A stretch of 54,972 nt of DNA from Flavobacteriales bacterium. Its GTDB lineage: Bacteria; Bacteroidota; Bacteroidia; Flavobacteriales_E; Vicingaceae. The position numbers and the translations under genes are program-made. Shown here one piece after another: positions 1-54,972 of this stretch (positions are counted from its first letter, which is position 1; every line of letters starts with the position of its first letter). The notes beneath the pieces were generated by a model. It was given only the letters and a program-made list of their open reading frames with translations. It searched no databases and had not been told where the DNA came from. The stretch spans positions 1-54,972 of the forward strand of contig JABWCF010000018.1 in assembly GCA_013359255.1 (NCBI GenBank), read 5' to 3'.

Positions 1-157
1 CGCCTACAAAACCTGTATCGGGCAGGGTATTGGGCAGGTTTTGGCTAATGGCCGAAAGGGTAAATATGCTCATAAAAAAGCATAATAAACTAATTTTTAG
101 ATAATTGGGGGGGGGGGGGGTAAATGTACCCTTACTAATTTTGATACGTGTAATCAT
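1..157 (-). CDS. N-terminus of a secreted protein with in-frame poly-C tract (partial)
   Basis: Reading leftward from the ATG at 157-155, an open frame runs off the left edge (52 codons visible). It begins MITRIKISKGTFT, continues with four prolines encoded by the C14 tract (plus strand G14, 107-120), then NYLKISLLCFF, a hydrophobic segment and SAISQN, which looks like a Sec signal peptide. A second in-frame Met is residue 29 (ATG at 73-71), but it would cut off the charged n-region of the signal peptide. With exactly 14 C the upstream ATG is in frame with the signal peptide; with 13 C the frame closes at a TAA just after the tract. The function of the mature protein cannot be told from about 15 residues. 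A promoter-like sequence lies just upstream. Confidence 0.6.
   Translation of the reverse strand, partial: MITRIKISKGTFTPPPPNYLKISLLCFFMSIFTLSAISQNLPNTLPDTGFVG
107..120. repeat. Homopolymer G14 (C14 on the coding minus strand)
   Basis: An uninterrupted run of 14 G sits between the probable start codon and the signal-peptide coding region of the minus-strand gene at the left edge. Long G/C homopolymers are rare in AT-rich DNA and are classic sites of slipped-strand phase variation. It could also be miscounted by sequencing. Confidence 0.9.
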
Positions 158-177
158 CCTGTAAGATTTTATGTAAG

Positions 178-209
178 TAAAGTTAAGGAAATATTTTTGA
201 GAATTCCAA
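178..209 (-). promoter_or_regulatory. Possible promoter of the left-edge gene
   Basis: On the minus strand there is TTG (209-207), 21 bases, then TAACTTTA (185-178), one mismatch from the Bacteroidota -7 box TAnnTTTG. This places a start of transcription roughly 14 bases before the ATG at 157. Confidence 0.35.
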
Positions 210-294
210 CTCATTTAATTAGAGACCGAAAGGGCGAACTGATGACCAACGAGTATTTTTCAAACAATACTTACTCCTCTTGCTTTTTGGGTAT

Positions 295-2184
295 TTACAA
301 GGCGTTCTTTTTTATTTCTTCTACCACTTTAGGGTCTAAAAGAGTAGAAGTATCGCCTAAATGAGAAGTATCGCCCTCGGCAATTTTTCTAAGAATTCTA
401 CGCATAATTTTTCCACTACGGGTTTTGGGCAACCCCGAAACAATTTGAACTTTATCGGGCTTAGCAATGGCACCAATTTCTTTATTTATCATATCTAAAA
501 TTTCGACTTTTAGTTTTTCATTATCGTAATTTGTATCCACAGAAATTACGTAGGCATAAATTCCTTGTCCTTTAATATTATGAGGGAAACCTACCACCGC
601 ACTTTCCACAATAATGGGGTGAAGGTTAATGGCACTCTCTACTTCGGCTGTTCCAATTCGATGTCCGCTTACATTTATTACATCATCAACCCTTCCGGTA
701 ATTCGGTACAAACCGTCTAAATCTCTTTTGCAACCATCACCGGTAAAGTACAAATTTTTGTATGTAGAAAAATACGTTTGCTTACATCTTTCGTGGTCGC
801 CATAGGTGGTGCGTATCATTCCCGGCCAAGGGAATTTTATACAAAGATTTCCTTCTACTCCGTTTCCTTTTATTTCGTTTCCTTTTTCGTCAATAAGAAT
901 GGGTTGTATGCCCGGCAAAGGTAAAGTTGCAAATCCTGGTTTTTGTGGTGTAATTCCTGCCAATGAAGAAATCATAATTCCTCCTGTTTCGGTTTGCCAC
1001 CAAGTATCTGCAATGGGGCATTTTTCTTTGCCAATATTTTTGTGATACCATTGCCAAGCTTCTTCATTAATAGGTTCTCCTACACTACCTAAAACCCTTA
1101 GTGAATCGAGTTTATAGGGCTTTACATAATCCAAACCAGCCGCTTCTAAAGCACGTATGGCAGTAGGTGCGGTATAAAAAATAGTTACTTTGTACCGATC
1201 AATTATTTGCCAAAAACGACCTGCATCCGGATATGTAGGAATTCCTTCAAAAATAACTTGTGTAGCCCCAGCAAGCAATGGTCCGTAAACAATGTACGAA
1301 TGGCCGGTAATCCAACCCACATCGGCTGTACACCAAAAAATTTCGTTTTCGTTGTACTGAAAAACATTCTGAAAAGTGTACTGAGAAAATACCATATACC
1401 CTCCGGTGGAATGAACCACCCCTTTGGGTTTGCCCGTAGATCCCGATGTGTAAAGTATAAACAGTATATCTTCGCTATCCATAGTTTCCGCTTCACAAAC
1501 GGCTGAAACATTTTGCATTTCTGCATGCCAAAACACATCTCTTTCGGCTACCATGTTAATGCTGTTTCCAATATGTTTTAAAACAATAACCCGTTTTATA
1601 CTTGAACAAGAAAGCAACGCTTCGTCTGCAATTTCTTTAAGCTGTACGGGTTTTGAGCCTCTGTAAACACTATCGGCAGTAATTAACAGAGTACATTCAC
1701 AGTCGTTTATTCTGCCTGCAAGGGCGTTGGCCGAAAATCCGCCAAAAACAACCGAGTGAATAGCTCCAATTCGTGCACAAGCTAGCATGGCCACTACAGC
1801 CTCAATGGTCATGGGCATATAAATACAAATGCGATCTCCTTTTTTTGCTCCGTTTTTTTTCAGCACATTGGCAAACTTACATACCTCGGTATAAAGCTCC
1901 TTATAGGTAATAGAACGTGATTGGTTTGCCGGATTGTTTGGCTCAAAATAAAAAGCAATTTTATTGGGGGTTTTCTCTGCATGCCTGTCCAGGCAATTTT
2001 CTGTAATATTTAATTTTCCGTTTACAAACCACTTTATGTTAGGTTCGGTAAAATTCCAGTCTAGCACCTTGTCCCACTTTTTTCTCCAACTAAATTGTTC
2101 TGCTATTTCTTCCCAAAAAATTTCAGGATTTTCAACGCTTTTTTTGTATGCTGCTTTGTATTGCTCATTACTTTGTATTCTCAT
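295..2184 (-). CDS. acs: Acetyl-CoA synthetase (AMP-forming)
   Basis: This 629-residue enzyme activates acetate with ATP and CoA to acetyl-CoA, in the cytosol. The AMP-binding P-loop YTSGSTGKPKG is at residues 245-255, the adenylate motif WWQTETGG at 395-402, and the C-terminal hinge domain contains RVDDVINVSGHRIG. The catalytic lysine is in KTRSGK (Lys592), the site acetylated by Pat-type enzymes in other bacteria. Length and N-terminus match the family, so the ATG at 2184 is credible. It stands alone, facing away from the SprB cluster. No regulatory gene is adjacent. Confidence 0.96.
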   Translation of the reverse strand: MRIQSNEQYKAAYKKSVENPEIFWEEIAEQFSWRKKWDKVLDWNFTEPNIKWFVNGKLNITENCLDRHAEKTPNKIAFYFEPNNPANQSRSITYKELYTEVCKFANVLKKNGAKKGDRICIYMPMTIEAVVAMLACARIGAIHSVVFGGFSANALAGRINDCECTLLITADSVYRGSKPVQLKEIADEALLSCSSIKRVIVLKHIGNSINMVAERDVFWHAEMQNVSAVCEAETMDSEDILFILYTSGSTGKPKGVVHSTGGYMVFSQYTFQNVFQYNENEIFWCTADVGWITGHSYIVYGPLLAGATQVIFEGIPTYPDAGRFWQIIDRYKVTIFYTAPTAIRALEAAGLDYVKPYKLDSLRVLGSVGEPINEEAWQWYHKNIGKEKCPIADTWWQTETGGIMISSLAGITPQKPGFATLPLPGIQPILIDEKGNEIKGNGVEGNLCIKFPWPGMIRTTYGDHERCKQTYFSTYKNLYFTGDGCKRDLDGLYRITGRVDDVINVSGHRIGTAEVESAINLHPIIVESAVVGFPHNIKGQGIYAYVISVDTNYDNEKLKVEILDMINKEIGAIAKPDKVQIVSGLPKTRSGKIMRRILRKIAEGDTSHLGDTSTLLDPKVVEEIKKNAL

Positions 2185-2310: not shown

Positions 2311-3144
2311 ATGAATAAGCTATTTCTGTTTTTTACATTCGTTGTTTGTGCCGAAGTCGTAAGGTCTCAACCTTGTAATACCACCGTTTCTATAGTTGCC
2401 GATAAGCCAAATCCGATTTGTAAAGGCGATGTAGTTACTTTACAAGCTATAGTAACAGATGGAGGAAATAATCCATTTTTCTATTGGATTATTGGTGGAG
2501 ACACGCTGAGCTACACTTCCTCGTACACACAATCTTATTTTGCCGACCAGCCTGTAACCATTCATGTTTACTCTTCGGCACCCTGCGACCCCGATTCCGT
2601 TTTAACAACAGCCACATACACCGTTGATGTAGTTGAATTAACATTAACTCCACTATCCGGCATAGTAAAATGCAAAGATGCCACTACCGATGTAACCGTT
2701 ACAGCCAATGGAGGAACCGAAGATTATTCCTATACAATTAACGGAAAAGGTAATGGGAAAGACAATACCTTTAAAAATCTTTCACCGGGAACTTATCAAG
2801 TAATTGTTACAGATGCCAATGGCTGCAAAGACACTTTCGAAATAGTGGTTATAAAAGAAATTTGTAAAGACCCCGAACCCATTCCGGTTTTTTCTCCAAA
2901 TGGAGATGGATACAATGATGTTTGGCACATAAGAAATATTGACGACTGGGAAGATAATAAAGTATATGTTTTTGACCGTTGGGGACAACGGGTTTTTTAC
3001 AAAAAAAACTATACCAATGCCGAAGCTTGGGAAGGAAATTACTTAGGAATGTATATGCCCGCAGCGGCTTACTACTACATAATAGAATGGGAAGATAATG
3101 ACGAAAAAAAACGCATTAAAGGACCGGTAACATTAGTTCGATGA
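2311..3144 (+). CDS. Secreted SprB-repeat protein with T9SS type B (CHU_C) sorting domain
   Basis: A 277-residue exported protein. Residues 1-19 are a signal peptide ending near VVRSQ. An Ig-like segment follows to about residue 105. A single SprB-type repeat (about 110-185) contains NGGTEDYSYTI, NLSPGTYQVIVTDANGC and the usual two cysteines. The C-terminal domain from about residue 193 has FSPNGDGYNDVW, VFDRWGQRVF and GPVTLVR, the gliding-motility-associated CHU_C domain that directs T9SS export and surface attachment. It overlaps the following PorP/SprF gene by four bases (ATGA), so the two are translationally coupled: a small cargo with its dedicated partner. The cargo's role is probably adhesion, by inference from SprB proteins. 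Confidence 0.85.
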   Translation: MNKLFLFFTFVVCAEVVRSQPCNTTVSIVADKPNPICKGDVVTLQAIVTDGGNNPFFYWIIGGDTLSYTSSYTQSYFADQPVTIHVYSSAPCDPDSVLTTATYTVDVVELTLTPLSGIVKCKDATTDVTVTANGGTEDYSYTINGKGNGKDNTFKNLSPGTYQVIVTDANGCKDTFEIVVIKEICKDPEPIPVFSPNGDGYNDVWHIRNIDDWEDNKVYVFDRWGQRVFYKKNYTNAEAWEGNYLGMYMPAAAYYYIIEWEDNDEKKRIKGPVTLVR

Positions 3145-4049
3145 AGTTTTTTATAACATACTCTCTTTTACTGATTGCTATTACGCTGAACGCACAGCAA
3201 AATTCTCAGTATTCTCATTATGTACTGAATTATTATTCGGAAAACCCTGCCGTGGCTGGAAGCACAAAATGTGTTGATTTTAAAATGGGAGGGCGGTATC
3301 AATGGTTAGGGATGGAAGGAGCTCCCAGTTCCATTTTTGCCAGTATTCACGGGCCTATCGGAAACAAAAAAAAACCTTACAGAAAAGGAAGACATGGCGT
3401 TGGACTTTACATCGAACGAGACCGTATGCATATTATTACCGAAACTTATGTTAAAGGCTCTTATGCCTATCACCAGCGTTTAAGCAGAGGGCTAACCGGT
3501 GCCGCAGGAATATTTGTAGGCGTAAAACAATATTCTATTGATAATGTTACAAACGATCCGGCCGTTGGCGGTTCTGCTTTGCAATATCCCGATTTAATGC
3601 CAGGTGTAATGCTCTACAATAATAAAATGTACTTAGGTCTTGGCATAGAACACCTCTATCCCAACCGCATAAAAGCAACTGCCTCCAGTAAATTTAAAAA
3701 TCAATATTATTTTAGTGGGGGCTATCGTTTTCCGGGGGCCGGAAATTTTATGATTTTCCAGTCCTTCAATTTTAAATTCAATTTTATGGGACCTCCTTCT
3801 ATTGATTTATCTCAGGCCTGGGAACATAAAAAAATTACACTTGGAGCCAGCTATCGTGTAGGAGAAGCAATTGTGCTCTTTTTTAGATTACGATTATTTA
3901 AAACATTTAATGTAGCTTACGCTTTTGATTTTCCTTTGAATAAATTACGCACCGGGTTTGCCACTTCGCATGAAGTTATTTTAGGTGTTAGTAAATGCCG
4001 CACAGATTTAGGAAATCCTGAAATGCATGCATGTCCTGCATACCGCTAA
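3141..4049 (+). CDS. PorP/SprF family T9SS outer-membrane protein (first copy)
   Basis: A 302-residue protein with a signal peptide (about residues 1-18, ending NAQQ) and the family motif QYSHYVLNYYSENPAVAGS, followed by a region rich in beta strands consistent with an outer-membrane barrel. In known systems SprF is needed for export of the adjacent SprB, and PorP binds type B CTD cargo at the surface. It follows the small CHU_C protein with a four-base overlap. The tail KCRTDLGNPEMHACPAYR has two cysteines and extends past the point where the second copy (13671-14588) ends; this tail is unexplained. Confidence 0.88.
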   Translation: MKFFITYSLLLIAITLNAQQNSQYSHYVLNYYSENPAVAGSTKCVDFKMGGRYQWLGMEGAPSSIFASIHGPIGNKKKPYRKGRHGVGLYIERDRMHIITETYVKGSYAYHQRLSRGLTGAAGIFVGVKQYSIDNVTNDPAVGGSALQYPDLMPGVMLYNNKMYLGLGIEHLYPNRIKATASSKFKNQYYFSGGYRFPGAGNFMIFQSFNFKFNFMGPPSIDLSQAWEHKKITLGASYRVGEAIVLFFRLRLFKTFNVAYAFDFPLNKLRTGFATSHEVILGVSKCRTDLGNPEMHACPAYR

Positions 4050-4148
4050 AATTATTTATTTTTATTCTTTTCATTTCCTTTTTTTAAGCAACTAGTCGAC
4101 AGTTTTAATCGTCCCTAAACATATTGTTTGGAGATTATTCTTTTGGTT

Positions 4149-4180
4149 TTTGGTATTGATAAAAAAAATATTTATTTTGG
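4149..4180 (+). promoter_or_regulatory. Possible promoter of the giant SprB-like gene
   Basis: TTTG (4149-4152), 20 bases, then TATTTTGG (4173-4180), one mismatch from TAnnTTTG, in the 149-base gap before the adhesin ATG at 4199. It suggests the second adhesin-PorP pair is transcribed separately from the first. The rest of the gap is T-rich with no clear terminator. Confidence 0.4.
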
Positions 4181-4198
4181 TTACCTGATTTTTTATTT

Positions 4199-7100
4199 AT
4201 GTTTCCGTCTAACCTATTAAAAATGCTTGCGTTACTGTTTGTATCGTTGTTTTTTGCAGCAGAGTTTTCGTATGCAGGTAACTACTATTGGGTAGGAGGT
4301 TCAGGTAATTGGAACGATGCTACTCATTGGTCATTTATTTCAGGAGGAGTGGGAGGAGCTGGCATTCCACAACAACACGACAATGTTTACTTTGATTCAA
4401 AATCGAGAGGAACAAGCAAAAAAATAGATATTTTCCTCAGTTCTGATGCATATTGCAAAACATTTACTTCAACTCCGAGTACTTTTACAGCCTTTAAAGG
4501 AAAAAATAATACGGTTACCATATATGGTAGTGCCGAAATAAATGGTTTTTCTTCTTTCGAAGAAATAAATGAATTTCAATTTATTTCTAACCAAAACGAT
4601 AATTTTTTAAAATTTAAAACCGCTTCTCTTCCCTATAAAATAAGCATCAATGGTGGGGGAATATGGAATCTAAACGAACATTTAACTTCTTCGAACACCA
4701 TACTTTCAGTACAAAACGGGCAGTTTATTTCGGAAAATTACAACATTGTTTGTAAAAGTATTAATGTTGAAAAGGCGGGAGACCTAAAAGTGGAGAAGGC
4801 AAGCATCCTATCACAAAATGCTTCATCGCTTAAAGGAAAAAATATTAAACTGAAAAACGTAAGGGTACAGACCGTTAGTTTCTCAAACCTTATAAATCAA
4901 AAAGAAAACGAAGAACAGCCTGAAACCATTTTCAGTATAACTATACCTAACGATACGGTTTCTTGTGGCAATAATTGCGATGGAACGCTAACTGCTACCA
5001 TAAACCACAATTGCATTAATGGAGTAACCATAGACTGGCTTCCAGGAACCCCCAACGGAGACGGAACTCCCACTATATTTAATTTATGCCCCGGCACCTA
5101 TACTATTGTGGTTACCGATAATTGCTCCGGACAAGTAATGGCACAAAACGGACAAGTTTTTGGCCACCCGCAAATTGTTCCGCTCATTCAAACCATTACT
5201 CAGCCCAAATGCAATGGGGGCTGCGATGGCTCTCTTTTTGTTTTTGCATCAGGAGCTACCCCCTTTTTAACCTACAATTGGAGTACCGGATTTATAGACT
5301 ACAGCAACGGAGGTTCAACCATCTCCAACTTATGTGCGGGCACATACACTCTGTCTATAAGCGATAGTATTGGGTGCGATACCACCATTACATTGGTAGT
5401 AAATCAACCCGCACCTGTTTCTCCAAACGCAGTTGGCTCTATGGTTACTTGTGTGGGCAGTTGCGATGGAACAGCTACGGCAAACCCAAGCGGAGGAACT
5501 CCACCCTACGTGTCTTACCTTTGGAACCCCGGGGGACAAACTACTCAAACAGCTACCAATTTATGTCCAGGAAACTACACCGTTACTGTTACCGATGCGA
5601 ACGGGTGTACCGGACAACAAACGGTACAGGTTACCGAGCCTGCTCCCATAGCCTTTCAACTCACCACCACTAATGTGGTTTGCAACGGAGCTTGTAACGG
5701 AACAGGAACCGTATCAAATATAACCGGAGGAATTCCTCCTTACATTGTTACTTGGAATCCCGGAGGACAAACAGGGAACAATATCAATAATCTCTGTCCG
5801 GGAAATTACTCTGTTACGGTTATGGACGGTAACGGATGTACCACTACTCAAAGTTTTACCATTTCTGAACCGGCTGCAATCATTGTTACTCTCTCAAGCA
5901 CCAATGTTATTTGTTTTGGCGATTGTAACGGTACAGCAAGTGTAATCAACGTAAGCGGAGGATCCGGTGTTTATGTATCTTACAGTTGGTCGCCCAGCGG
6001 GCAAAATGGACCTAACGCCACCGGGCTTTGCCCTGGAACACATACCGTTACGGTTACCGATAACAAAGGCTGCACGGGCTCTGCAAGCATTGTTATAACA
6101 GAGCCTCCATTATTAGAGGTAATTGCATCAGGGATTCAACCTTCGTGCAACGGTTCTTGCGATGGTTCGGCAACCGTGGTAATTAATGGAGGTATTCCGG
6201 GATACAACATTTCATGGAATCCGGGAGGGCAAACCACACCCTCTATCACCAATTTGTGTGCAGGAACTTATATCGTTACTGTTACAGACCAGTCTGGATG
6301 CGTAAGAAAAGATACAGTAGTACTCATCGACCCTCTTCCCATCAACCCCAATGTACAAGTTACAAATGTTCTTTGCAACGGAGCATGTAACGGAAGTGCT
6401 ATTTCTCTTACCACGGGAGGTACTCCTCCGTATAGCTACAATTGGGTTCCCGGAGGGCAAACCACACCCGGAATAAACGGCTTGTGCCCCGGGAGCTATA
6501 CCGTTACCGTAACCGATGATAACGGTTGTACAGGCCAGCAAACCATAATCATAACACAACCTCAAGCCTTAACGGCAACCACCAACGCCATTGCAGCAAG
6601 TTGCGGAAGCATCTGTAATGGTATTGCTTCGGTAACACCCGCAGGGGGAACTCCTGGTTATACCTATTTGTGGATGCCCGGGGGACAAACTACTCAGGTG
6701 GCAACCAACCTATGTGCAGGCGTTTACACGGTTACTGTTACCGATGCAAATGGTTGTACCTACTCAACAACCGTTACGATTACCAACCTCATTCAAATAA
6801 ATATCGTTACTACTGCCGCAAGCGTTAGCTGCAACGGCATTTGTGATGGTACCGCTACAGCAACCCCTTCAGGAGGAACTCCCCCTTATACTTATTTATG
6901 GATGCCCGGGGGGCAAACCACTCAAACAGCCGTTAATTTATGCCCCGGAATTTATACCGTTACTGCTACCGATGCAAACGGGTGTGCTACTACTGTACAA
7001 GTAACAGTTCCCGCAGGTCCCTCCGCTCTTACAACCAATTTAACCTATACCGATGTAACTTGTTTCGGGTACTGTAACGGAACAGCTAGCTCTTTCCCAT

Positions 7101-10100
7101 CCGGAGGAACTCCTCCGTATTCATTGCTTTGGAGCCCCGGAGGGCAAACTACAAACACAATCAATGGACTTTGTGCAGGAACCTACAGTATTTCAGTTAC
7201 AGATGCTAATAATTGTACGGAAATAGATTCGTTCGTAATTATAGAACCCACACCCATTGCGATTAACCCTATTGTGGCAAACCCAACATGTAACGGAGCT
7301 TGTGATGGTTCAATTACACTAAACCCATCAGGAGGTACACCCGGATATACTGTTTCTTGGAATACCGGCTCCACTAGTATGACACTAAGTAACCTTTGTG
7401 CAGGAACTTATGTAGCCACCATTACCGATGCCAATGGCTGCCAAACAGCTCAAAGTTTTACTTTAATTGCTCCACCGGCAGTAGTAGCCAATATTATTAC
7501 CACAAATGCTTCTTGTAATGGGTTGTGTGATGGTACAGCCACCGCCATGGCCGGAGGAGGCACTCCTCCTTACACCTACTTCTGGAGTCCGGGAGGACAA
7601 ACTTCACAAACCATAACAAATCTTTGTGCCGGTAATTATTCTGTTTTAATAACCGACCAAAACGGATGTAACACTCAAATTAATTTCACTATTACTGCTC
7701 CTTCGCCTATTTCGGCTAATCTAAGCAGCACAGATGTAACTTGTAAAGATTACTGCAACGGTACTGCTACAGCTTCTCCAACCGGAGGCACAGCCCCCTA
7801 CACATACTTGTGGGCTCCCGGAGGGCAAACTACACAAACCATTTCAGGATTATGCCCAGGAGTGTACACCGTAACCATTACCGATGCCAGCGGCTGCAAC
7901 ACCACAGCACAAGTTACTATTACCGAACCCAACGTATTGGATGCCGTTCTTTCTTCTACCAATATTAATTGTAATGGTACATGCACCGGAACAGCTACTG
8001 CCATACCCAGTGGGGGCACTCCCCCATACACCTATTTATGGGTACCCGGTGGACAAACTACACAAACAGCCACAGGTCTTTGTTCGGGAGTTTATTCCGT
8101 TACTATTCTAGATGCCAACGGGTGTTTTTTTCAAAACTCTGTAGTGGTTAGTGAAAATCAGGCTATTGCAGATAATCCAAGTTTTGTGAATCCTAATTGC
8201 GGAGTTTGTAATGGAGTTATTTCCTTAGCTCCTACCGGAGGCTTACCACCTTATACCTATGCATGGTTACCGGGTGGACAAACTACAGCTTCCATCGGTA
8301 GTCTATGTGCCGGTATTTATAGTGTAACCATTACCGATGCCAATGGCTGCTCTCAGTCATTTACTTACGGATTAAGTAACAACAATGGTCCGGTAGGTGC
8401 CTCAGTAATATTAAACAACGCTTCTTGTAATGGTTCTTGCGATGGTTCGGCCAGCGTTATTCCAATTGGCGGCACTCCACCTTACACCTACTTGTGGGAT
8501 GACCCGGGTGCTACTACCACTTCCACTGCAAATAATTTATGTGCCGGGCTGTATAATGTTATCATTACCGATGCTAACGGATGCGTATATATTCAGCAAA
8601 TAACTATCGGGGAGACAAACCCGATTTTAGCAACCATAAACTCTATCGATGCTCTTTGTAGCGGAACTTGTAGTGGAGAAGCAATGGCTGTGCCAAGCGG
8701 TGGAACTTCCCCATATACTTATTTATGGTCAAATGGGGGCACGAACACTTCTACATCGGGCCTATGTGCCGGAAATCACAGTGTAACCATTACAGACGAT
8801 AATGGCTGTTCTAACACTTTCAACTTTACTATTAATGAACCTTCGGTTATTTTGCTGAATACATCTTCATCCACCATAAATTGTAATGGAAACTGTGATG
8901 GAACCGCCACCGTAACCGCTTCGGGAGGCACAAGCCCTTACACCTTTTTATGGAACAATGGGCAAGTAACTCCTACCGCTACTAATTTATGTGCGGGAAA
9001 CTATACGGTAGTGGTTACAGATGCTAACGGATGTACGACAATTGCAACTATTTCGGTAATTGAAAATCCTATACTTCAGGCAACTTATTCTTCTACCAAT
9101 GCTATTTGTGGTGTATGTGACGGAACTGCTTCGGTAAACCCCTCTGGAGGAACCGCACCATACACCTATTTGTGGAATTTTGGTGCTACTACTCAATCGG
9201 TTGTGGCTCTTTGTGCAGGAACATATACAGTAATTGTTACCGATGCGTTGGGATGCAGCATCACTCTTACTATTCCTGTTAGTAATGTAAACGGACCAAT
9301 TGTAAGCATAAGTTCTGTCAACGCTACTTGTAACGGAGGTTGCGATGGAACAGCCTCTGCTACAGTATCAGGGTTAAACCCTCCTTTTAGTTATTTATGG
9401 TTTCCAGGAGGACAAACAACTTCTAGCGTAGCAGGTCTTTGTGCAGGAGCCTATACTGTTCAAGTAACCGATAATGCGGGATGTATAACCGTTCAATCGG
9501 TTACCATTACCGATAATCCTTCTCTTTCTATTAACACAACTACAAATAACACCTCCTGCAATGGAGGTTGCGATGGTTCGGCAATTGCAATGCCTTCGGG
9601 GGGATCGCCTCCTTATACTTATCTGTGGAGCAATGGTTCTACCTTAAATGCGGTAGCAGGATTATGTGCAGGAAACTATACTGTTACAGTTACAGATGCA
9701 AAAGGCTGTAGTTTTCAAACCAATGTTACCATAGGCGAGCCCTTGTCTATTACATTAACTCCTAGCTTTATCAGTGCTACGTGTAATGGAGGTTGCGATG
9801 GTTCTGCAACAGTAAATGTAAGTGGAGGAACATTACCCTATACATACCTATGGAATAATGGAGCAACCACTCAAACCATCGTTAATCTTTGTGCAGGAAA
9901 CTATACTGTTAGTGTTACTGATGCAAAAGGTTGTTCTTCTACAGCCAATGTAACCATTGGAGAGGGGAACATCATAAATATTACCCCCTCTACTACCAAT
10001 GCAACTTGCGGACAATGTGATGGAACAGCCTCTGCCACGGTAAATGGGGGAAGCGGTCCGCCTTATACCTATCTTTGGATACCCGGAGGACAAACCACAC

Positions 10101-13100
10101 CAAGCGTTACAAATATGTGTCCGGGAGCCTATACTTTAATTATTACAGACAATGCAGGTTGTTCCGATTTTAAAAATATTTTGATTCAACAAACCAATGG
10201 ACCGAACATAAATGCTAGTTCTTCCAACACATCTTGTCCAGATGCTTGTGATGGAACAGCTACCGTAACGATAAACTCCGGAAATCCTCCCTATTCAGTA
10301 ATTTGGAATGATCCATTGTTTCAAACTACCAATACAGCTACCGGACTGTGTTCCGGTTTATATAACGTAGTAGTTCAAGATGTAAACGGATGTATTTCTG
10401 TAGATTCTATTACGGTAAACGACCCCCCTACTCTTTTAGCTAATTTAGCTCCTGCCAATCCTTTATGCGATGGAGTTTGCAATGGTTCTATTACCGCAAA
10501 CCCAAGCGGAGGAAACGGAGGTCCCTTTCAGTACAGTTGGAGCCCTGGAGGACAAACATCTCAAACTATTTCAGGCCTTTGTGCAGGAAAATATGTAGTT
10601 ACCATTACTGATATAAATGGATGTACTGCAAAAGACTCTGTTACGCTTGTAGCACCTTCTCCAATTTCCGTAACCATAAACTCTACTAATGCCAATTGTA
10701 ATGGAAGTTGCGATGGTACAGCTTTCGCTAACCCTTCCGGAGGAAATCCTCCATATACCTACTTATGGAGCAATGGACAAACCACGCAATTAGCAGTAGG
10801 TTTGTGTGCAGGAAATTACACAGTTACCCTTACCGATGCGAATGGTTGCACCGAAACACAAAATGTAACTATTAACAATCCTTCGGCTCTTACTGCCACA
10901 AGCAGTAGTACAAATGCAGTTTGTGATGGGGTATGTGATGGCTCGGCCACAGCTAACCCTGCGGGAGGAACCCCTCCTTATTCTTACATTTGGAGTAACG
11001 GACAAACCACGCAAACGGCAACAAATCTTTGCCCCGGAAATTATACTGTTGATGTAAGCGATTCCAAAGGCTGTGTAGTAACTTTAAATGTAAGTATTAG
11101 TGCCCCCCAACCATTATCCTCTAATACAAATGTGAGTCCTGCTACTTGTGGTCTTTGTGATGGAACTGCCACAGCAAATCCAAGCGGAGGCTCCGGTAAT
11201 TACAGCTATTTATGGGGCAATGGGCAAACTACACAAACCGCTACCAATTTATGTGCAGGTATTATCACTTTGCAAGTAACCGACAATATTACCGGATGTA
11301 TAGCTAACTTCAACGTAATTATAAATAGTATTGGTGGACCAACCATTAACTTAACCACAATAGATGAAACATGCTCCGGGTTATGCAATGGGTCAGCTTC
11401 AGTTAACCCTGTTGGCGGAAATCCTCCGTATTCTTACTTATGGAACAACGGACAAACTACACAAACGGCCACAGGCCTTTGTGCCGGAAATTATACCGTT
11501 ACTGTTACCGACAACTTAGGCTGCATAACCATTGAAGCATTTACAATAAACACTTTTGTATTAGACATTATAATAAGTAATTCGAACGACCCGCTTTGTA
11601 ATGGTGATTGTAATGGAACTGCCACCGTTACTCCGTTAAACGGAACTCCGGCATATTCATATAACTGGACACCTGGAGGACAAATTACACCAACGGCTAA
11701 TACGCTTTGTGCAGGCAATTACACAGTAACCGTTACCGACCAAACTGGTTGTTCCAACACTACAAGTGTAAGCCTAAATGAACCCATAGAACTAGCTGCA
11801 ATTGCCACCACTCTGCTAGAACCCGCTTGTAATGGATTTTGTGACGGTGCCGCAGAGATTATCGCATCGGGAGGAACAGCTCCTTACAGTTATTTATGGA
11901 GCAACGGGCAAACCTCTTCTATTGCCACCAACCTATGTGCAGGCACCTACTCTGTAATTGTTACTGATGCGAATGGTTGTACAGCCTCTGCCTCAGTTAC
12001 AGTTAATGAACCAACTCAAATACAGGCCAATGCAGTAAGTGTATTTCCACTTTGCGGAGTATGTGATGGACAAATTAACTTAAATCCATCTGGAGGAACA
12101 GGCCCTTACACTTTCCTTTGGAACGGAGGACAAGTAACCCAAATGATTAATAATTTATGTGCAGGTATTTATGTGGTTACTATTACCGATGCAAAAGGAT
12201 GTTCTGAAACCTTTACCATACCTCTAAGCAATACAAACGGACCTCAGATAAGTCTTAATTCAACTCAGATTTCCTGCTTCGGAATGTGTGATGGAAGTGC
12301 TCAGGTAACAGTACTAAACGGAAATGCTCCATTCTCTTACTTATGGAACCCAACACTAAATACAACTCCTTCTATTTCTAACTTATGTGCCGGAGTTTAC
12401 AGTATTTTAGTTACCGATAAAGATGGTTGCGTATCGGCCGATACTGTTACCATTATTGAACCTTCTCCTATTGATGTAAATGTAAGCTCAACCCCTGTAA
12501 CTTGTACAGGAGATTGTGATGGAACCGCAACTGCTAATGTATCGGGAGGTACCGGACCATATACCTATTTGTGGAACGACCCATCAACTCAAATTACACA
12601 AACTGCCGTAGGGTTGTGTGCTGGGAATTATACTGTTATCGTAACCGATTCAAAAGGATGTACCGGTACTGCAAACATTACTATTTCGTCTTCCAATAAC
12701 CTTAATATAGATAGTATTACAGCAATACCCGCCAGTTGCAATGCAAATTGCGATGGGATTGGCTCTGTTTTCGTTTCGGGTGGCATTCCACCTTATCAAT
12801 ACAGTTGGAACAACGGTGCAACTTCCGCTTCTACCAACACCCTTTGCATTGGGCTTGCTACTGTTACTGTTACCGATGCTGCCGGATGTACCGTTCAGGC
12901 TAGCATAAATATAATATCGCTTGTTACTGTTTTAGCTGATGCCGGAAACGACACTTCGTATTGCTCCGGAAATGGGCCTATTATTTTAAATGGAAATGTT
13001 ACGAACGCTAATTCTTTTGAATGGTTTGAACTTCCAAGCATGAATTCTCTAGGAAACAACCTCCTCATTACAGTAAACCCTCCTATTGGAACAAGTTGCT

Positions 13101-13669
13101 TTGTATTGGTTGCTTACAACGGCAACTGCATCTATTCCGATACGGTTTGTATTACCGTGCACCCATTACCCGTAGTGGATGCCGGTGCAGATGTAAAAAT
13201 TGTACAAGGAAAGAGTACTATTTTAACAGCAACGGGAGGAGGTAGTGGAGCAAGCTATAATTGGTCTCCTCCAAATTGGTTGAGCAATACCACCGGAAGT
13301 TCTACGGTAGCTACCCCTCCAACATCTACCCTATATTTTGTAACAGTAGTAGATGCCAACGGATGCGAGGGTAAAGACTCGGTATTGGTGGAAGTATTGC
13401 CTCCCATAAAATTCCCCGATGGCATTACTCCTAATGGCGATGGCAAAAACGATTACTGGATTATTGATTTTATTGACCAATACCCAAATAATGTAGTGGA
13501 AATTTATAATCGCTGGGGACAACTGTTATTCCGTGCCCAACCCTATAAAAACGACTGGGATGGCACTTTTGAAGGAAAACCATTGCCGGTTGGAACTTAT
13601 TACTTCGTAATTGAATTAAATGAAGAAGGAGCAAAACCATTTACCGGACCTATAACTATAATGAGGTAA
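4199..13669 (+). CDS. Giant SprB-like adhesin: 35 SprB repeats and CHU_C sorting domain
   Basis: A 3156-residue exported protein. Residues 1-26 form a signal peptide (MLALLFVSLFFAAEFSYAG). Next is a Bacteroidota surface domain starting NYYWVGGSGNWNDATHWS. Residues about 248-2907 are 35 tandem SprB repeats averaging 76 residues, each with GGTPPYTYLW, NLCAGTYTVTVTDANGC and usually four cysteines. Two Ig/PKD-like segments follow (LADAGNDTSYC, VDAGADVKIVQGK), then a CHU_C domain (ITPNGDGKNDYW, IYNRWGQLLF, GPITIMR) for T9SS export. SprB of Flavobacterium johnsoniae is a mobile surface adhesin in gliding; motility here is not shown, since no gld genes lie in the window. The paired PorP/SprF gene starts one base after this stop codon. 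Alternatives are biofilm or attachment adhesin. Confidence 0.93.
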   Translation: MFPSNLLKMLALLFVSLFFAAEFSYAGNYYWVGGSGNWNDATHWSFISGGVGGAGIPQQHDNVYFDSKSRGTSKKIDIFLSSDAYCKTFTSTPSTFTAFKGKNNTVTIYGSAEINGFSSFEEINEFQFISNQNDNFLKFKTASLPYKISINGGGIWNLNEHLTSSNTILSVQNGQFISENYNIVCKSINVEKAGDLKVEKASILSQNASSLKGKNIKLKNVRVQTVSFSNLINQKENEEQPETIFSITIPNDTVSCGNNCDGTLTATINHNCINGVTIDWLPGTPNGDGTPTIFNLCPGTYTIVVTDNCSGQVMAQNGQVFGHPQIVPLIQTITQPKCNGGCDGSLFVFASGATPFLTYNWSTGFIDYSNGGSTISNLCAGTYTLSISDSIGCDTTITLVVNQPAPVSPNAVGSMVTCVGSCDGTATANPSGGTPPYVSYLWNPGGQTTQTATNLCPGNYTVTVTDANGCTGQQTVQVTEPAPIAFQLTTTNVVCNGACNGTGTVSNITGGIPPYIVTWNPGGQTGNNINNLCPGNYSVTVMDGNGCTTTQSFTISEPAAIIVTLSSTNVICFGDCNGTASVINVSGGSGVYVSYSWSPSGQNGPNATGLCPGTHTVTVTDNKGCTGSASIVITEPPLLEVIASGIQPSCNGSCDGSATVVINGGIPGYNISWNPGGQTTPSITNLCAGTYIVTVTDQSGCVRKDTVVLIDPLPINPNVQVTNVLCNGACNGSAISLTTGGTPPYSYNWVPGGQTTPGINGLCPGSYTVTVTDDNGCTGQQTIIITQPQALTATTNAIAASCGSICNGIASVTPAGGTPGYTYLWMPGGQTTQVATNLCAGVYTVTVTDANGCTYSTTVTITNLIQINIVTTAASVSCNGICDGTATATPSGGTPPYTYLWMPGGQTTQTAVNLCPGIYTVTATDANGCATTVQVTVPAGPSALTTNLTYTDVTCFGYCNGTASSFPSGGTPPYSLLWSPGGQTTNTINGLCAGTYSISVTDANNCTEIDSFVIIEPTPIAINPIVANPTCNGACDGSITLNPSGGTPGYTVSWNTGSTSMTLSNLCAGTYVATITDANGCQTAQSFTLIAPPAVVANIITTNASCNGLCDGTATAMAGGGTPPYTYFWSPGGQTSQTITNLCAGNYSVLITDQNGCNTQINFTITAPSPISANLSSTDVTCKDYCNGTATASPTGGTAPYTYLWAPGGQTTQTISGLCPGVYTVTITDASGCNTTAQVTITEPNVLDAVLSSTNINCNGTCTGTATAIPSGGTPPYTYLWVPGGQTTQTATGLCSGVYSVTILDANGCFFQNSVVVSENQAIADNPSFVNPNCGVCNGVISLAPTGGLPPYTYAWLPGGQTTASIGSLCAGIYSVTITDANGCSQSFTYGLSNNNGPVGASVILNNASCNGSCDGSASVIPIGGTPPYTYLWDDPGATTTSTANNLCAGLYNVIITDANGCVYIQQITIGETNPILATINSIDALCSGTCSGEAMAVPSGGTSPYTYLWSNGGTNTSTSGLCAGNHSVTITDDNGCSNTFNFTINEPSVILLNTSSSTINCNGNCDGTATVTASGGTSPYTFLWNNGQVTPTATNLCAGNYTVVVTDANGCTTIATISVIENPILQATYSSTNAICGVCDGTASVNPSGGTAPYTYLWNFGATTQSVVALCAGTYTVIVTDALGCSITLTIPVSNVNGPIVSISSVNATCNGGCDGTASATVSGLNPPFSYLWFPGGQTTSSVAGLCAGAYTVQVTDNAGCITVQSVTITDNPSLSINTTTNNTSCNGGCDGSAIAMPSGGSPPYTYLWSNGSTLNAVAGLCAGNYTVTVTDAKGCSFQTNVTIGEPLSITLTPSFISATCNGGCDGSATVNVSGGTLPYTYLWNNGATTQTIVNLCAGNYTVSVTDAKGCSSTANVTIGEGNIINITPSTTNATCGQCDGTASATVNGGSGPPYTYLWIPGGQTTPSVTNMCPGAYTLIITDNAGCSDFKNILIQQTNGPNINASSSNTSCPDACDGTATVTINSGNPPYSVIWNDPLFQTTNTATGLCSGLYNVVVQDVNGCISVDSITVNDPPTLLANLAPANPLCDGVCNGSITANPSGGNGGPFQYSWSPGGQTSQTISGLCAGKYVVTITDINGCTAKDSVTLVAPSPISVTINSTNANCNGSCDGTAFANPSGGNPPYTYLWSNGQTTQLAVGLCAGNYTVTLTDANGCTETQNVTINNPSALTATSSSTNAVCDGVCDGSATANPAGGTPPYSYIWSNGQTTQTATNLCPGNYTVDVSDSKGCVVTLNVSISAPQPLSSNTNVSPATCGLCDGTATANPSGGSGNYSYLWGNGQTTQTATNLCAGIITLQVTDNITGCIANFNVIINSIGGPTINLTTIDETCSGLCNGSASVNPVGGNPPYSYLWNNGQTTQTATGLCAGNYTVTVTDNLGCITIEAFTINTFVLDIIISNSNDPLCNGDCNGTATVTPLNGTPAYSYNWTPGGQITPTANTLCAGNYTVTVTDQTGCSNTTSVSLNEPIELAAIATTLLEPACNGFCDGAAEIIASGGTAPYSYLWSNGQTSSIATNLCAGTYSVIVTDANGCTASASVTVNEPTQIQANAVSVFPLCGVCDGQINLNPSGGTGPYTFLWNGGQVTQMINNLCAGIYVVTITDAKGCSETFTIPLSNTNGPQISLNSTQISCFGMCDGSAQVTVLNGNAPFSYLWNPTLNTTPSISNLCAGVYSILVTDKDGCVSADTVTIIEPSPIDVNVSSTPVTCTGDCDGTATANVSGGTGPYTYLWNDPSTQITQTAVGLCAGNYTVIVTDSKGCTGTANITISSSNNLNIDSITAIPASCNANCDGIGSVFVSGGIPPYQYSWNNGATSASTNTLCIGLATVTVTDAAGCTVQASINIISLVTVLADAGNDTSYCSGNGPIILNGNVTNANSFEWFELPSMNSLGNNLLITVNPPIGTSCFVLVAYNGNCIYSDTVCITVHPLPVVDAGADVKIVQGKSTILTATGGGSGASYNWSPPNWLSNTTGSSTVATPPTSTLYFVTVVDANGCEGKDSVLVEVLPPIKFPDGITPNGDGKNDYWIIDFIDQYPNNVVEIYNRWGQLLFRAQPYKNDWDGTFEGKPLPVGTYYFVIELNEEGAKPFTGPITIMR
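4940..12919 (+). repeat. Coding tandem array of 35 SprB repeats (about 228 bp each)
   Basis: The array covers residues 248-2907 of the giant adhesin. Nucleotide identity between units is moderate, so the array is old. Units with C-x-x-C instead of C-x-x-x-C at the first cysteine pair are numbers 15, 19, 23, 28 and 32, with first Cys codons at 8198, 9107, 10007, 11147 and 12053. The same units end in an NGP or GGP linker instead of the usual EP-type ending. Confidence 0.92.
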
Positions 13670-54801: not shown

Positions 54802-54972
54802 TTAATTGTTTAATTTTTCTATCTCCTGTTTTAGAATATTAAGTTTATGGCTTAACTCAATAATATATAAGCTTTGTTCTTCAATTTTTTCGAGTAGTTT
54901 GGCTTGCATCTCACCTAAACGAATACCCGTTTCTTCCACTTCTTTTGCAGAAGGAACACCCGGCAAATGCTT
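54802..54972 (-). CDS. C-terminus of a protein with coiled-coil tail (partial)
   Basis: The last 56 codons of a minus-strand gene that enters from the right edge: [16 protein letters not shown], then [25 protein letters not shown] and KQEIEKLNN. The [11 protein letters not shown]...[18 protein letters not shown] pattern is familiar from the ends of Bacteroidota tail-fibre-domain (S74-like) surface proteins; the domain itself lies outside the window. It ends four bases before the glycosyltransferase start. Confidence 0.75.

Follow-up and report, generated by a model that had tools for sequence, protein, structure and literature searches.

Does a run of 14 cytosines near the start of a secreted-protein gene, at the end of a contig from a Flavobacteriales bacterium, act as an ON/OFF switch of that gene? 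Contingency genes driven by slippage have been described mostly in host-adapted pathogens, with host immunity as the usual explanation, and the phylum Bacteroidota is known mainly for inversion switches. Here, we report the analysis of this locus in the source genome (G000; GenBank assembly GCA_013359255.1), of its relatives in a second species of the genus (G001; record prefix CAJPFH), and of similar tracts across the class scanned, presumably Bacteroidia. The genus is known here from draft genomes only. The window, meaning the whole stretch of DNA analyzed (54,972 nt), is the entire contig G000:C24 (JABWCF010000018.1), and because its position 1 is a contig end, the body of the gene lies outside it. 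Gene copies are labeled in the style of copy C18 (G000) or copy g1C45 (G001), and tracts by their bases (a C14 tract).

We put a probability of roughly 0.84 on the reading that the tract is a slipped-strand phase-variation switch of a surface-protein contingency gene, one that would switch within the population.

Results

Read on the + strand, the tract is exactly 14 consecutive G (C14 on the − strand). The preliminary description had placed the switch at positions 1 to 157; a C14 tract is present there, the tract proper being confined to the positions given in Table 1. The window has six C9 matches, every one of them within this tract (mean of 0.16 in 100 shuffles, never 6), and about 4e-6 C/G runs of 14 or longer are expected by chance under an independent-base model (window GC content, 36.6%).

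From the ATG at 157, the frame passes through the tract as PPPP into the hydrophobic segment NYLKISLLCFFMSIFTLSAISQ and meets no stop before the window edge, so that the 5′ end comprises, in order, an N-terminal segment, the poly-C, the signal peptide, and the start of a fiber-like stalk. A C13 version of the tract closes the frame at a TAA (99-97) and a C15 version at a TAG (92-90), both alternative frames stopping in no more than 5 codons. Translation thus bears out what had been claimed for the C14 and C13 frames, as it does the internal ATG at 73. A further in-frame ATG of this gene lies at 214. The segment upstream of the start, which is common to the copies, is by eye a probable promoter; it holds a Bacteroidetes-like −7 element, TTAACTTTAC. 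The + strand row of genes at 2311-13669 resembles type IX or gliding adhesin clusters.

Table 1. Features located in the window
Feature	Position	Strand	Basis
Family A gene, 5′ end, start at ATG 157	1..157	−	Open frame and relatives
Signal-peptide hydrophobic segment, adjoining the tract	47..106	−	Translation, judged by eye
Internal ATG in the body frame	73-71 (listed 73..75)	−	Translation
Poly-C tract, 14 C on the coding strand	107..120	−	Sequence read directly
Upstream segment common to copies, probable promoter	158..220	−	Read by eye
Acetyl-CoA synthetase, upstream gene, same direction	295..2184	−	Pfam; synteny with G001:C101
CHU_C type IX signal protein	2311..3144	+	
PorP/SprF	3141..4049	+	
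Repeat protein, 3156 codons	4199..13669	+	
Family A C-terminal tail, 56 aa, cut by the edge	54802..54972	−	Profile match (E 2.6e-13), ORF

Where a single element had been described, we found a multi-gene, multi-family set. With the 52-residue start as a query, G000 gave 9 matches and G001 gave 8, one of the latter re-reading a place already matched; 19 other relatives searched gave no match. The resulting family, termed family A, has 15 heads, 8 in G000 and 7 in G001. Each consists of about 60 nt of common upstream sequence, an ATG, a short basic stretch of one of three types (MITR/MIIR, MMQV/MIQV, or MHTP/MHTQ/MQTP), the C tract, the signal peptide, and the stalk, the last two being almost invariant across heads. 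The longest C run measures 8 to 15 in 14 of the 15 heads, and copy C16 has a degenerate tract, its longest run being 5.

The ATG is in frame with the signal peptide in 4 of the 15 heads: the window, C27, C7, and C3 among the 8 G000 copies, and none of the 7 in G001. Five of the 11 out-of-frame heads have open bodies of 249 to 434 codons, three reach contig ends, and three (C16, g1C3, and g1C8) stop early, after 61, 41, and 28 codons. One frameshift each was found within the bodies C26a and C26b and near the starts of g1C3 and g1C8. Copies C18 and g1C45 are orthologous by their flanks, and both bodies are out of frame with the ATG; dN/dS between them is 0.081 over 350 codons, with 20, 15, and 88 differences at codon positions 1, 2, and 3. 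Comparison of C26b, which is probably the body of head C22 to judge from its match to g1C8 and a common contig-end sequence, with g1C8 gave dN/dS values of 0.087 and 0.061 in their two pieces. The out-of-frame genes of family A are not dead, and their bodies are under purifying selection.

Two G001 loci, on C101 (L121, G001:C101:1-137) and C6 (L122, G001:C6:1-158), lack what normally lies between the promoter region and the C-terminal tail, so that the two abut. The one deletion common to both suggests gene conversion or recombination between copies. G001:C101 is the orthologous site of the window locus with its head gone, and identity is 92% over 2.2 kb up to the junction. The tail at the right end of the window has the same orientation as the head at the other contig end, and its matching locus is G001:C84. 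A circular replicon, with head and tail at the two ends of one contig, was considered and dropped; in G001 the right-end tail (C84) and the left-end site (C101) sit apart, which makes two separate loci the simpler reading.

Of the 9 orthologous pairs, 8 have tracts of unequal length in G000 and G001. For five family A loci, the G001 flanks are orthologous (90 to 95% identity in the main segments, over 2.5 to 3.4 kb), and their tracts are C11/C11, C4TC12/C10, C8TC6/C11, C11TC4/C15, and C9/C10; the sole equal pair, copies C27/g1C51 with C11 on both sides, carries one head type in G000 and another in G001. The tracts of four further orthologous pairs, from other families, are C9/C8, C9/C8, C6/C8, and C9/C12, and in two pairs a C9 tract in frame faces a C8 tract out of frame. 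As a control for local error and drift, runs were compared in the aligned flanks of these loci and of the window locus, where 1 of 12 A/T runs of 8, 8 of 29 runs of 7, and 13 of 83 runs of 6 (any base) had changed. This control is not length-matched, the C runs of 9 to 15 exceeding the 6- to 8-base runs compared, and since long C runs mutate more easily than A/T runs of 6 to 8 bases, the contrast shows instability and not function.

Family A bodies have a conserved N-terminal stalk, a variable middle, and a coiled-coil-like C-terminal end. PHROGs matches to tail-fiber families were weak (best named, 8.4e-6), as was a profile match to the Bdellovibrio MAT fiber 8ojn (E 3.4e-4, over the GVGT stalk motif), and the predicted structure of one body had a mean pLDDT of 35 and was unusable. 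Five bodies contained no family above cut-off in Pfam and NCBIfam, including no type IX C-terminal sorting domain, and no S74 domain; a search of viral contigs with one body gave no relative. The product may be a fiber-like surface adhesin, a description kept conditional because the tail-fiber and MAT matches are weak and the model unusable.

All other C runs of 9 or longer in G000 and G001 were inspected, together with a pattern for MK[HY]-x-P starts. Tracts of C8 to C12 were found directly after the ATG in unrelated secreted families of the same genomes. These proteins, families B and C, begin ATGAA[AG][CT]A[CT]TT[AC] and pass at once into the C run; families A, B, and C are unrelated in sequence and carry the tract at the same place. 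Family B (MKHLPPPIFGTLKTLVFAVFVNVTSMLHAQ) has C9 in frame in L066, L072, and L081 and C8 out of frame in L095, L097, and L098; two of the out-of-frame C8 copies retain 1338 and 1310 open codons, and in L083 and L099 ATA or ATAA replaces the start. Two orthologous pairs of family B have C9 in frame in G000 and C8 out of frame in G001. L097 ends in a type IX sorting domain (PF18962, 5e-14; TIGR04183, 1e-12), L095 has PKD domains, and the paralogues L095 and L081 give a dN/dS of 0.175 over 771 codons. Family C (L065 and L086) has a glycine-rich ALK/LTK-like domain and tracts of C9 and C12, both out of frame, with a body dN/dS of 0.25 over 184 codons.

Heads and bodies also recombine: at one orthologous family B locus a 272-codon body faces a 1310-codon body without end-to-end similarity, and the C26a/g1C32 bodies are 57% identical over their first 189 residues against 90% in the flanks. 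The remaining C runs of the two genomes are intergenic or within genes, and no switch role is claimed for them. Matches to a family-B-like pattern in G002, G009, and G001 (C34) were rejected as short non-secreted frames. In two related proteins of about 1040 codons (CPPPPPIPNMNGPTTVCEG), C runs lie in frame near codon 185 (L069, 2298-2309, C12; L073, 2117-2125, C9) and are possibly truncation switches or plain proline codons. L087 (G001:C107, 2169-2180) has an in-frame C12 in a 412-codon frame that by eye is like an ABC transporter permease.

Distinct C/G runs of 10 or longer, counted by hand, number 8 in G000 and 11 in G001 against 21 across 44 other genomes of the family; among these, 5 of the G000 runs and 6 of the G001 runs are family A tracts. 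Elsewhere in the same family, the layout was found at none of 14 fetched places chosen for C runs or B-like starts, among them L112, a C run near the ATG of a 406-codon frame that has no signal-peptide-like segment. Across the class, ATGAAR with C9 within 33 nt occurs in 62 of 395 genomes and the reversed pattern in 35 (a hand count), so many single matches are due to chance.

Outside the own family, 80 of 82 listed places were fetched and tested; to pass, a place needed a body of 60 codons or more and, close to where that body begins, a strongly hydrophobic segment. Of the 80 tract loci 26 passed, as did 29 of 307 ATGAAR sites without a tract taken from the same DNA. An out-of-frame layout was found at 23 of the 80 tract loci against 11 of the 307 controls (Fisher p 5e-10, with sites that are not independent and a control with one fixed spacing). 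The 23 loci (range, L131 to L206) come from 17 further genomes in 12 other families of the class and have unrelated bodies. A start such as MKNTFTPPP or MKILPPPP is frequent among their heads, with a hydrophobic core that ends in AQ coming next in another frame, and G317 has three such heads, each on a different body. A scan of 20 bodies identified SprB repeats (L131 and L136), subtilase (L143), GH16 (L169), PKD (L186), an S74 chaperone with a YadA head (L200), and DUF6973 (L157); 12 of the 20 had no domain at E 0.001, L168 giving a sub-cut-off Ig match only. At L190 (G307:C2:126093), a C23 run follows ATGAAGTATATCTA, and the next frame, of 42 codons, has a signal-peptide-like look.

Of the 26 loci that passed class-wide, only 3 have the ATG in frame (P 0.011 under random frames), and two of these three, L174 and L191, are by eye chance cases in GC-richer DNA. 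The out-of-frame offsets split 16 to 7 between the two kinds, an ill fit to a single programmed slip or a constant undercount. The shortage of in-frame copies, here and in family A of G001 (0/7), lies outside the prediction of random switching: either copies are mostly kept OFF, or transcription slippage gives some expression, or the assemblies are biased.

Discussion

In the proposed switch, a gene of a dispersed, secreted, tail-fiber-like family would start at ATG 157, and its signal peptide would be read only if the tract length kept the body in the frame of the ATG. A C gained or lost as the DNA replicates would end translation within a few codons, export and body being lost together, and later slips at the tract would bring the gene back ON. 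With each copy switching independently, a population would hold many surface-protein combinations, and unrelated secreted families of the genus would use the same poly-C device. As in known contingency loci, the tract lies inside the 5′ coding region (in the window and the family A heads), a change of length brings frame loss and a translation stop (window frames; 11 of 15 family A heads out of frame), length varies between species at one locus, and OFF alleles keep a selected body (C18/g1C45, 0.081; paralogues L095/L081, 0.175). The ON/OFF switch before the signal peptide put forward in the preliminary description is supported by the 8 of 9 orthologous pairs that differ in length and by purifying selection on out-of-frame bodies. 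Slippage within the population and display at the surface as adhesin-like fibers would follow from this reading, with phage, grazers, or surface attachment as the probable selecting force.

The same tracts could be of fixed genomic length, with the polymerase or ribosome slipping so that an out-of-frame gene yields a small, steady amount of protein. Such slippage in expression would fit body selection that persists with both species out of frame, and also the 23 of 26 class-wide loci that are out of frame, as if that length were the normal one. However, at 8 of 9 orthologous sites the genomic length is not the same in the two species, with shifts both ways relative to the frame, in-frame copies are present (4 of 15 in family A and 3 in family B), and offsets are mixed (16/7) where a programmed slip would favor one; we regard this explanation as unlikely. 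That the copies form a decaying gene family, in which the C run grew by mutation pressure and has no switch role, is suggested by the extra lesions in C16, g1C3, g1C8, C26a, and C26b and by the head-removing deletion common to two G001 loci. Against it, a dN/dS of 0.08 with intact 350-codon bodies already makes decay unlikely, and the tract stands at the same place in three sequence-unrelated families, with the layout found again in 12 other families of the class; taken together, decay is very improbable.

True lengths might also be constant and in frame, and the C runs miscounted by short-read assembly: both genomes are fragmented drafts with heads mostly at contig ends, and homopolymers are error-prone. 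Yet internal T differences accompany the length differences (C8TC6, C11TC4), lengths range from 8 to 15 without a constant offset, and A/T runs of 8 agree in 11 of 12 cases in the same assemblies, so that we hold miscounting to be highly improbable. Least probable of all is that the tract is an untranslated leader and the protein begins at ATG 73, an ATG that shares the body frame in every copy that aligns there. A start there leaves MSIFTLSAISQ only, too short for a signal peptide, with half a hydrophobic core and lacking a charged n-region; families B and C have no such ATG, their tract coming a few codons past their own start. The homologues speak against a start at ATG 73 with the tract untranslated, the upstream ATG being present in 15 of 15 family A heads and leading directly into the signal peptide in 4 of them.

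A broader claim is that poly-C between the start codon and the signal-peptide core is a general, repeatedly evolved, class-wide contingency device, with copies mostly OFF at any time; it is tentative, and we give it slightly under an even chance. If true, environmental bacteria would possess a large, slippage-driven switchboard of surface proteins, placed on SprB-repeat proteins, S74/YadA-head fibers, a subtilase, a GH16-like enzyme, and type IX cargo. Together, the set of several families in one Flavobacteriales genus and the layout in 17 further genomes would suggest that forces other than host immunity (phage, grazers, or attachment to surfaces) select for such genes, and that the phylum has a second way of varying its surface. 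Since the assembly shows most of these surface genes out of frame, annotation pipelines will overlook many of them or call them broken.

Several known systems bear comparison. In the opa genes of Neisseria, the repeat sits in the signal-peptide region. There are about 11 unlinked opa paralogues per strain, each with its own repeat near the 5′ coding end (PMC5320596, available in part), and family A is proposed to work in the same way, as unlinked copies each with its own 5′ repeat. The differences are that opa has a CTTCT pentamer and encodes outer-membrane barrels, whereas the proteins here are fiber-like or type IX proteins behind a poly-C tract; with poly-C in place of a CTTCT repeat, and no Pfam family such as an Opa barrel above cut-off in five bodies, family A stands outside the opa family, and no relation is expected. 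Phase variation in Bacteroides is driven by invertases and acts on surface structures (2025 review, PMC11868660, available in part). Phylum and surface structures are shared, but that switching uses inverted repeats and a recombinase, and at positions 1-700 of the window a search for inverted repeats flanking the promoter gave one weak 21-nt pair only (76%, 388 nt apart). The words Flavobacteri and homopolymeric are absent from the available part of that review.

Homopolymers near gene starts have been proposed as a general device, the accessible part of the source giving no Bacteroidetes name (PMC2831843), and no report of poly-C before a signal peptide was found in the literature on homopolymer phase variation and on Bacteroidetes/Flavobacteria, as covered in part and without subscription papers. 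The mosaic adhesive trimer (MAT) fibers of Bdellovibrio are likewise many tail-fiber-like secreted paralogues with differing outer parts (PMC10769870; PDB 8ojn); the family A match to them is a weak one in sequence, and the available part of that paper reports no poly-C switch. The nearest precedent in Flavobacteriales, to judge from the part of the source available, is the set of FSD adhesins of Ornithobacterium hominis, with at least 20 genes and a phase variation mechanism that its authors term putative (PMC13183296) and do not describe further in that part; the domain differs from that here. The poly-G/poly-C loci of Neisseria, Campylobacter, and Helicobacter, mostly of surface proteins (PMC5084427 and PMC5320596, each available in part), have in common with the present genes a coding homopolymer of about 8 to 15 bases and frame-dependent ON/OFF states; here, by contrast, the tract sits between the start codon and the hydrophobic core, in unrelated families, and in an environmental genus of Bacteroidota.
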